DNA of 64,000 bases from contig NZ_JAMKFE010000002.1 in assembly GCF_023721835.1 (NCBI RefSeq), positions 124,001 to 188,000 on the forward strand, in the 5' to 3' direction. Made by a program: the position numbers and the translations under genes. Origin of the DNA: Caldimonas mangrovi. Its GTDB lineage: Bacteria > Pseudomonadota > Gammaproteobacteria > Burkholderiales > Burkholderiaceae_C. The notes beneath the pieces were generated by a model. The model saw nothing but the letters and a program-made list of their open reading frames with translations. It searched no databases and was not told the DNA's origin. Shown here piece after piece: positions 10,643-37,079 of this stretch. Position 1 is the stretch's first letter, and each line of letters begins with the position of its first letter.

Positions 10643-10678
10643 AAAAAAGAAAGAGCCCCAGTCGCGGGGACTGGGGCT
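10643..10678 (-). terminator. Intrinsic terminator of the small RNA candidate
   Basis: A perfect 10-bp stem with a 5-nt loop (10654-10678) is followed on the minus strand by C-TTT-C-TTTTTT (10653-10643). It points away from hemB and lies about 290 bp upstream of hemJ, so it does not end any annotated coding gene. Confidence 0.85.
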
Positions 10679-10757
10679 GCAAAGCCTTAACGCTGTCATC
10701 ACGGTAAGGCACCTGCTCAGGGAGGAAAAGCAGGGAATGAACGCCTTGCGACGTATC
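10643..10757 (-). ncRNA. Candidate small RNA with anti-Shine-Dalgarno loop and intrinsic terminator
   Basis: Read on the minus strand this non-coding stretch gives, in order: a CGUC-GCAA-GGCG mini-hairpin (10742-10753); a hairpin CCUGCU/AGCAGG whose 11-nt loop is UUUCCUCCCUG (10712-10734); a hairpin GCCUUACCG/CGUUAAGGC with one mismatch (10684-10710); and a perfect 10-bp terminator stem AGCCCCAGUC/GACUGGGGCU (10654-10678) followed by CUUUCUUUUUU. No coding gene on that strand needs this terminator. A C-rich loop able to pair with ribosome binding sites is typical of regulatory RNAs. No good promoter match is visible, and the 5' end is a guess. Confidence 0.6.
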
Positions 10758-31586: not shown

Positions 31587-33023
<1,437 letters not shown>

Positions 33024-33076: not shown

Positions 33077-33166
33077 CTCACCCGGCAGGACACATGCGGG
33101 TGAGCGCCGTTGCGATGGAAAGATTCCGAGCCTGGGGCCTGCTGGCCTTGCAACGCTCCTCGGAAG
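33077..33166 (-). promoter_or_regulatory. SAH riboswitch with overlapping intrinsic terminator, controlling ahcY
   Basis: On the minus strand the leader contains the SAH-aptamer core CCGAGGAGCGUUGC (from 33163), then CAGGCUCGG and CAACGGCGCUCAC. The 3' strand GCGCUCACCCG overlaps an 8-bp stem CTCACCCG/CGGGTGAG (33104-33077) followed by six Ts. This fits an ON switch: SAH binding captures GCGCUCAC, the terminator cannot form and ahcY is transcribed. The motif is known from beta- and gammaproteobacterial ahcY leaders. Confidence 0.92.
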
Positions 33167-33172
33167 TCGGCA

Positions 33173-35726: not shown

Positions 35727-36905
35727 TCAGCGTCCTGCAGCGGCCCGCAGCGCAGCCGCCTTGTCGGTCTTTTCCCAGGAAAACTCGGGCTCCTCGCGCC
35801 CGAAGTGCCCGTACGCCGCCGTCTTGCAATAGATCGGGCGCAGCAGGTCGAGCATCTGGATGATGCCCTTGGGCCGCAGGTCGAAGTACTCCTGCACCAG
35901 TTCGGCAATCTTGGCGTCAGGAATGACGCCGGTGCCTTCGGTGTACACGGTCACGTTCATCGGGCGGGCCACGCCGATGGCATAGGCGACCTGGATCTGG
36001 CACTGACGCGCCAGGCCGGCCGCGACCACGTTCTTCGCCACGTAGCGCGCGGCGTAGGCTGCCGAGCGGTCGACCTTCGTCGGGTCCTTGCCCGAGAACG
36101 CGCCGCCCCCGTGCGGGCAGGCACCGCCATAGGTGTCGACGATGATCTTGCGGCCGGTCAGGCCGCAATCGCCCTGCGGGCCGCCGATGACGAAGCGCCC
36201 GGTGGGGTTGATCAGGTACTTCGTTTCCTTCAGCCACTCCTTGGGCAGCACCGGCTTGATGATTTCCTCGATCACCGCCTCGATGAACTCCGGCTTCATC
36301 TTCGCGCCGTCGCTCATCTCGGGCGAGTGTTGGCTCGACAGCACGACGGTGTCGATGCTGTGCGGGCGGCCGTCGACGTAACGCATCGTGACCTGGCTTT
36401 TCGCGTCGGGGCGCAGGAAGGGCAGCCGACCGTCCTTGCGCAACTGCGCCTGGCGCTCGACCAGCCGGTGTGCGTAATAGATCGGCGCGGGCATCAGCTC
36501 CGGTGTTTCGTCGCAGGCGTAGCCGAACATCAGGCCCTGGTCGCCGGCGCCGGTGTTCAGGTGGTCGTCCGAGGCGTGGTCGACGCCCTGGGCGATGTCA
36601 TTGCTCTGCTTGTCGTAGGCGACCAGCACCGCGCAGCCCTTGTAGTCGATGCCGTACTCGGTGTTGTCGTAGCCGATACGCTTGATGGTGTCGCGCGCGA
36701 CCTGGATGTAGTCGACGTGCGCGTTGGTCGTGATTTCGCCGGCCAACACCACGAGCCCGGTGTTGCACAGCGTTTCAGCGGCCACCCGCGAGCGGGGGTC
36801 CTGCTCGAAGATGGCATCGAGGATGGCGTCGGAAATCTGGTCGGCCACCTTGTCGGGGTGGCCCTCCGAGACCGATTCGGAAGTGAAGAGAAAGTCGTTC
36901 GCCAC
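35727..36905 (-). CDS. metK: S-adenosylmethionine synthetase
   Basis: MetK makes SAM from methionine and ATP. The 392-residue protein has [17 protein letters not shown] with His16, [16 protein letters not shown] (active-site loop), [20 protein letters not shown] and [19 protein letters not shown]. The start is GTG 36905 (VANDFLFTS), with TTGGAG 8 nt upstream; the much longer frame is an artefact. The ribosome binding site is part of a hairpin at the end of a long structured leader. A terminator lies 22 bp after the stop. Confidence 0.97.
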
Positions 36906-36913
36906 AGTGGTGA

Positions 36914-37068
36914 CTCCAAACAATAAGACCCTGACCTGCGTTTGCCGGCCCGGGTCCTTTGGAGGTGCGGCGAACGCTTTAGCGGCATTTGTCGGACTCA
37001 CGTCCTGCAGGGGCTCGCTATGCTTCGCACCTGCGTCGCCCCGCAAGTTGTTCCTTAAACCGGCGACC
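36914..37068 (-). promoter_or_regulatory. Structured metK leader RNA, candidate SAM-sensing riboswitch
   Basis: From a start near 37068 the minus-strand RNA forms P1 GUCGCC/GGCGAC (37067-37062 with 37040-37035). Its loop ends in CUUGCGG (37047-37041), which pairs with CCGC-ua-AAG (36985-36977) to make an H-type pseudoknot. Between them lie hairpins GCAGG/CCUGC (37034-37007) and GGAC-GUGA-GUCC (37005-36994). The tail GACAAAUGCCGCUAAAGCG resembles the 3' tail of SAM-II aptamers as I remember it. A final hairpin CUCCAAA/UUUGGAG (36964-36958 with 36920-36914), with an inner GACCC/GGGUC stem, buries the metK ribosome binding site. Confidence 0.62.
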
Positions 37069-37073
37069 ACGCG

Positions 37074-37079
37074 ATTATA
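37074..37079 (-). promoter_or_regulatory. Perfect -10 box of the metK leader transcript
   Basis: TATAAT at 37079-37074 on the minus strand places transcription start at about 37068-37067, exactly at the first pair of the leader's P1 stem. No good -35 hexamer is visible. The box lies 7 bp from the start of the divergent acyltransferase gene. Confidence 0.7.

Follow-up and report, generated by a model that had tools for sequence, protein, structure and literature searches.

A putative SAM riboswitch related to SAM-II and SAM-V in the metK leader of Caldimonas mangrovi and other Burkholderiales

Judged from its sequence, the leader of metK in Caldimonas mangrovi is a conserved pseudoknot RNA belonging to the SAM-II/SAM-V superfamily, of which it forms a divergent branch not listed in Rfam. 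With a probability of roughly 0.8, it functions as a SAM-sensing riboswitch of this superfamily, from a branch not modelled in Rfam and common at metK of Burkholderiales, in which SAM-bound helix P2a would weaken the competing helix P4 and the tail would mask the ribosome-binding site (RBS), turning expression off. Comparison of related leaders shows that the predicted fold is conserved and linked to metK, and that P2a and the pairings of the tail with the RBS and in P4 covary. According to the accessible text of a 2014 survey (PMC4239095), metK in beta-proteobacteria lies outside the known regulators and attempts to find one failed; furthermore, no description of an element at beta-proteobacterial metK was found in the open-access literature, as far as its accessible text extends. 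If true, the element would fill this gap in metK regulation with a concrete, testable RNA, and would carry SAM-II-type sensing beyond methionine synthesis to that of SAM itself.

The metK locus and the pseudoknot core of its leader

The window, i.e. the whole stretch of 64,000 nucleotides of C. mangrovi DNA that was analysed, carries metK for methionine adenosyltransferase at 35727..36905 on the minus strand, as assigned from its translation and a TIGR01034 equivalog match of 587 bits. The gene starts with GTG (36905-36903), and the Shine-Dalgarno (SD) sequence GGAG (36914..36917) is found 8 nt upstream. The leader spans 36896-37079, and all its features given below are on the minus strand. 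As stated in the preliminary description, a perfect -10 box TATAAT (37074..37079) precedes a 6-bp stem, P1, in which GUCGCC (37062..37067) pairs with GGCGAC (37035..37040); the predicted 5' end of the RNA is the first nucleotide of P1. A match to TATAAT in at least five of six positions is present upstream of P1 in 142 of the 163 leaders compared below versus about 20.7 in shuffles, and 117 of 158 best hexamers are located 6 or 7 nt before P1; no -35 partner passed the consensus scan. Both hairpins said to follow were likewise found, namely P3 (37007..37034), part of the insert that separates P1 from the A-rich loop, and P3b (GGAC-GUGA-GUCC, 36994..37005), as was the last hairpin, in which the anti-SD sequence CUCCAAA (36958..36964) pairs with UUUGGAG (36914-36920), which holds the SD, as seen in both sequence and fold. 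This last helix extends over the GTG start, since the tail CGUUCGCCGCA (36966..36976) pairs with the start-codon arm UGUGGCGAACG (36896..36906) in the MFE and centroid folds.

The proposed pseudoknot was confirmed, with one refinement. The sequence CUUGCGG (37041-37047) faces CCGCUAAAG (36977..36985; SAM-II positions 40, 41, G42, C43, U44, A45, A46, A47 and G48); instead of a UA bulge, the SAM-II alignment gives the pairs U21-A45 and U20-A46, with U44 (36981) alone bulged. The 5' strand of this helix, P2, consists of U20, U21, G22, C23, G24 and G24a (37041..37046) and pairs with 36979-36985; P2 is two base pairs longer than in the SAM-II metX structure. A helix absent from the preliminary description is P2a, formed by GAAC (37050..37053) with GUUC (36972..36975), the latter also being the first nucleotides of the RBS-masking tail. 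The suspicion that the leader is not of the standard SAM-II form was borne out, since a search of it against Rfam 15 gave no match, either at gathering score or at E<=10, and the gathering score of 36 bits for RF00521 was not reached. Folding of 36893-36976 gave -43.7 kcal/mol (z -5.72), equalled by none of 200 shuffles, the entire leader being only moderately above shuffles (z -2.37), 4 of 200 of which folded as well.

The comparison was based on 163 distinct leaders obtained from 198 metK leaders after 26 unparsed ones, 8 duplicates and another whose P1 was cut had been removed; as the leaders share ancestry, the shuffle and swap figures given here and below are not probabilities, and the tail classes track lineages. 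P1, the pseudoknot P2, and P2a in SAM-II register covary in these leaders. Pairs 1-6 of P1 are kept in 158, 161, 163, 162, 160 and 139 leaders, respectively, with pairs 1-4 varying little and pairs 5 and 6 being compensated (160 vs 128.8 and 139 vs 95.2 in shuffles). A P1 longer than 6 bp was rejected, pairs 7 and 8 being no better than shuffles in the same set. The core of P2 (U20-A46, U21-A45, G22-C43 and C23-G42) is invariant, as imposed by the parser anchors, and two extra P2 pairs covary (152/163 vs 121.9 and 161/163 vs 150.9 in shuffles). P2a forms between a loop sequence GAAC, GAC, CGAC or AAGAC and a tail sequence GUUC, GUC, GUCG or GUCUU, respectively; its pairs 1-4 are kept in 161, 162, 159 and 120 leaders, pairs 1 and 2 being almost invariant and pairs 3 and 4 above shuffles (126.7 and 84.5), while a fifth pair found no support (73/163 vs 76.2 shuffled). 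By eye, with the SAM_alpha consensus as reference, the register of P2a matches that of SAM-II, with two-nucleotide spacers to CUUGC and from GCUAAA.

A separate alignment of 26 cores was compared with 500 shuffles and with slid controls. In this alignment 96.9% of cells are paired (90.1% in shuffles and 35.6-47.0% in slid controls), the covariation score is 0.275 (0.160 in shuffles) and 34 cells are changed on both sides (12.2 in shuffles), none of the 500 shuffles being as high in any of these respects; two of the five measures used, both-side-changed pairs (211/500) and further pair types (494/500), are not above shuffles. The insert was aligned for six of nine genus members, three being omitted for differing inserts. 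Among the six, P3 has compensatory changes at four pairs, although two members lack one of these and two lack an inner pair; P3b is retained in all six, with changed loops, one A-U pair turned into U-A and one pair broken once. In relatives the insert reaches up to 101 nt. The insert motif GCGAAGCATAGCGAG was considered as a genomic repeat and rejected, as the genome holds a single exact copy.

Distribution and ligand pocket

When metK leaders were chosen by protein, blind to the RNA (80 named loci, 20 unnamed relatives and the window), the core was found in 99 of 101, and the two others (L041 and L073), the only ones of this set that did not parse, are both cut by contig ends. Among 40 further leaders hand-picked to span the order, the core was present in 19 and 21 were unparsed; one of the latter (L108) resembles a degenerate version of the element, the family's other four leaders examined being intact. 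Outside these 40, the unparsed leaders L202, L206 and L219 deviate by a long loop insert or a single substitution. Model R1, built from 26 cores with four P1 pairs and without the pseudoknot, gave matches at E<=1e-3 in 145 of the 250 genomes from the order, metK and other loci together; matches were also obtained in 45 of 274 genomes sampled over the class (three from the window's family) and in 17 of 249 over the phylum (twelve from the window's order), again with non-metK loci included. The gene metK lies directly downstream at 26 of the best 30 R1 loci in the order, and as some loci were selected through their R1 match, their numbers are no measure of frequency. Two leaders outside the order (L254 and L258) precede ORFs reading as metK. 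The element is accordingly judged to be real and conserved, an unlisted variant of the SAM-II superfamily, and most likely controls metK.

The accessible part of PMC3764141 gives U10-U12, U20-C23 and G42-A47 as the fully conserved SAM-II residues around SAM, and all thirteen are present in the window's leader, where the L1 pocket strand GGUUUA (37056..37061) corresponds to G8, 9, U10, U11, U12 and 13, and the A-rich loop AAAU (36987..36990) to A35-A37 and 38, both assigned from the 163-leader comparison. Across the 163 leaders, G42-A47 is identical in all, as imposed by the search anchor, and A35, A36 and A37 are A in 104, 134 and 133, respectively. Position 10 is G in 145 leaders and U in 18, i.e. 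the window and 17 others. SAM as the ligand is suggested indirectly by the pocket nucleotides, the linkage to metK and the bridge to the SAM-II model provided by metZ-type loci, described below.

It is quite improbable that the variant with G10 senses another ligand, such as a different SAM-related or a polyamine-related compound. Such a change would fit the fact that G10 stands in place of a nucleotide reported as fully conserved in SAM-II (PMC3764141, accessible part), and the available text of PMC10853860 describes SAM-I variants that bind spermidine, including one located at a metK gene. Against it, the window and the 17 other leaders retain U10 at the same gene, and the remaining twelve conserved positions are unchanged in the wider set, including the SAM-touching U11, U21, U44 and A47, although the parser anchors impose most of them. 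In the accessible description of SAM-V (PMC6061858), the third-strand U8 is bonded to the uridine with which the SAM adenine pairs; U8 is taken here as the counterpart of SAM-II position 10, so that G10 would be a second-shell change. The U10/G10 split provides a natural experiment on how much change the SAM-II pocket tolerates.

Several further observations concern related or neighbouring RNAs. Extra sequence is found within the L1 pocket loop of metK elements at L123, L199, L200, L201 and L202, by eye in some cases with a hairpin. Locus L003 is on a contig labelled Akkermansia, whose metK resembles beta-proteobacterial ones and which is probably misbinned. Aptamers in tandem, with what by eye is a terminator-like hairpin after the first, occur at L172, L173, L175, L177, L180, L182, L188, L191 and L260, where they precede a small ORF starting with MYDC or MFDC and a MATE-like transporter, and at L176, where only the small ORF was seen; the MATE-like family was tested at L172 only, and the small ORF there matched no family. 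Five tandem aptamer pairs, several nearly identical, are present in a single genome (G616, L243-L247), with an HD-domain protein downstream of one (L243). Aptamers also precede metF-like genes at L253 (MTHFR in Pfam) and L256 (by eye), and ORFs for MoxR-like AAA ATPases at L156 and L251 (Pfam) and at L158, L159 and L252 (by eye). In the window itself, an SAH riboswitch (RF01057, 66.8 bits) lies at 33095-33167 on the minus strand before the ORF 31587-33023, which we take to be ahcY; two genes of the SAM cycle about 4 kb apart would then have different RNA sensors. An anti-hemB small RNA (RF02837, 59.6 bits) was found at 10648-10736 on the minus strand.

Tail pairing and proposed mode of action

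The tail pairs with the SD and start codon and also forms the competing helix P4, each with cognate specificity. Tail and RBS sequences change together, being GUUCGCC/GGCGAAC in Comamonadaceae-type leaders, GUCGCAGG/CCUGCGAU in Undibacterium and GCCUGCUCC/GGAGCAGGC in L203. In the 163 leaders the mean energy of the tail with its cognate RBS is -17.8 kcal/mol compared with -13.7 kcal/mol for swapped partners; 75.5% of 9677 swaps between species are weaker (two controls, 46.6% and 52.9%), and in two draws 84.0% and 84.6% of 6520 swaps between tail classes. The first test of the anti-SD gave 0.724, with controls at 0.532, 0.630 and 0.540. Since the number of leaders in which the tail covers both the SD and the start codon barely separates cognate from swapped partners (94 vs 78.2 of 163), the evidence for tail-RBS pairing is taken from the energies. 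Covariation in related metK leaders, to which the preliminary description had looked, was seen for the RBS-masking helix as well as for P1 and the pseudoknot, and its proposal that metK is controlled by a translational switch, either SAM-II-like or of a new SAM-responsive type, is supported by the comparative data.

The candidate P4 partner of the tail in the window is GGCAAACGC (36938..36946), which would form a competing hairpin and was assigned through covariation in relatives, many of which carry GGCAACGC pairing with GCGUUCGCC of the tail. Matching changes give GCGUUCGCC/GGCAACGC, GUCGCAG/CUGCGGC and GCGUCACC/GGUAACGC, and 66.7% of 5646 swaps are weaker, or 79.4% of 4051 between tail classes, four between-class controls giving 45.7%, 53.8%, 54.5% and 56.1%. 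With an 18-nt tail the first test of P4 reached only 0.550, and 0.667 was obtained with a narrower tail window; this window was chosen after the earlier result was known, and P4 is therefore exploratory. In the window's own stopped transcript P4 was not predicted. Pairing of the tail with the 3' strand of P1 was rejected as the SAM-free alternative, being strong (mean -10.3) but without cognate excess (0.525), and no such excess was found for the tail with L1 (0.487) or with the insert (0.531), or for the RBS with L1 or P1 (0.489 and 0.495).

As P2a and P4 share tail nucleotides and P2a weakens P4, a route exists by which SAM could free the remainder of the tail for masking of the RBS. When P2a was imposed on the folded aptamer, the P4 pairing of tail nucleotides outside P2a fell from 0.586 to 0.345, with a decrease in 89 and an increase in 11 of the 163 leaders. 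In stopped transcripts P2a dropped the pairing of the middle of the tail from 0.632 to 0.201 (0.414 unconstrained), but partly by construction, and the former pair of values is the fair comparison. The RNA would accordingly be organised as follows. Transcription would begin at P1, and P1, P2 with its bulged U44, and P2a would enclose the pocket used for SAM in SAM-II. With SAM bound, P2a would lock the first tail nucleotides and P4, formed by the tail and the segment just downstream, would be weakened; the rest of the tail could then pair with the metK SD and start region, and less SAM synthetase would be translated. At low SAM, P4 or open forms would keep the ribosome site accessible. For SAM-II-type sensing, an expression platform whose tail can pair with any of three partners would be unusual.

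The OFF direction of this switch is suggested by the precedent of SAM-II and SAM-V, the role of MetK, and P4. Equilibrium folding fails as proof of it, since the SD is masked either way and the start codon opens: the SD is unpaired at 0.185 both with and without the aptamer (lower with it in 20 and higher in 12 of 163 leaders), and imposing P2a raises the unpaired fraction of the start codon from 0.336 to 0.465 (higher in 70 and lower in 23 of 163), the reverse of what a simple OFF switch would give, though partly by construction because P2a takes tail nucleotides. Switching would presumably be co-transcriptional (kinetic) rather than at equilibrium. It is unlikely that an aptamer of the SAM-II superfamily turns translation on with SAM here, the formation of P2a pulling the tail off the start codon, although the same tail nucleotides are used by P2a and by that part of the masking helix which covers the start codon, and imposed P2a did open the start codon in those 70 leaders. 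The SD stays paired in both states, P4 offers a route to OFF, the accessible text of PMC6061858 presents both SAM-V and the translational form of SAM-II as OFF switches, and activation of a SAM synthetase gene by SAM would amount to positive feedback. The masking of the RBS in both equilibrium states would also be expected of a structured leader without a ligand, acting as a protein-bound or constitutive translational brake. This is the least probable explanation considered, since the invariant positions coincide with the ligand pocket of SAM-II, and matches of R1 or RF00521 also precede metX, metZ and metF in relatives.

Relation to SAM-II, SAM-V and other known elements

Among known systems, the metK element is close to SAM-II (RF00521, SAM_alpha), with which it shares the H-type pseudoknot, P1, P2 and P2a, the bulged U44, the pocket nucleotides and, by eye, the P2a spacers. 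Canonical SAM-II is also present in the same order, with RF00521 matches in 115 of 250 genomes at E<=1e-3, 43 of them above the cut-off. The window's genome has one of 39.2 bits before metX (NF047916; L232, C23:288950-290950), where a G+C hairpin followed by a T run is seen by eye that the terminator scan did not call. In contrast, the metK element is unmatched by the SAM-II model, has mostly G at position 10 and carries the long inserts mentioned above, and its tail masks the SD and start codon before metK, with no terminator. None of the listed R1 metK elements appeared, by eye, among the RF00521 matches listed, and no Rfam SAM model matched at 28 other metK loci (8 searched at E<=1 and 20 at E<=10). 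Five metZ-type loci were recognised by both R1 and RF00521 (24.8-32.8 bits with the latter) and thereby link the metK branch to SAM-II; metZ was identified by family search at one of the five and by eye at the others, and the terminator scan calls a terminator at one of these loci. A 2007 paper (PMC2258182, accessible part) noted SAM-II in beta-proteobacteria, in most cases together with a terminator.

According to the available text of PMC6061858, SAM-V has the same pocket fold, and it also shares with the metK element translational control and a P3 hairpin as in the window. Its P2a has 2 bp and includes part of the SD, whereas that of the metK element has 3-4 bp; the distance from G42 to the start codon is 59-129 nt (median 74), so the SD is not within or directly after P2a. 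The SAM-V model gave no match in the window's leader or at 20 other metK loci at E<=10. As described in the accessible part of PMC2704228, SAM-V was separated from SAM-II because searches sort them apart, and judged in the same way the metK branch stands apart to a comparable degree.

The metXZ RNA element of Leyn et al. 2014 is likewise a beta-proteobacterial pseudoknot before methionine genes. In the accessible text of PMC4239095 it is described only for metX and metZ, with six conserved regions followed by a terminator; the metX and metZ loci found here fit that description and match RF00521, and are probably the same element as far as the two can be compared by description. Unlike the metXZ element, the window's leader has no terminator-like site in the scan and lies before metK.

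A more far-reaching view, held tentatively and at somewhat under even odds, is that the metK element represents a distinct riboswitch class within the SAM-II superfamily, its pocket being altered on the adenine side (G10 for U10), and would control SAM synthetase across much of Burkholderiales through its three-partner tail switch. In relatives a like aptamer may, on this view, act at the level of translation as the second member of two-level tandems that begin with a terminator-type SAM-II. Such an arrangement is similar to the Pelagibacter tandem of SAM-II and SAM-V, in that some relatives have an aptamer with a terminator-like hairpin and then a second aptamer near the start codon. In contrast to that tandem, the window has a single aptamer, and the tandems of its relatives precede genes for a MATE transporter, an HD-domain protein and metF.
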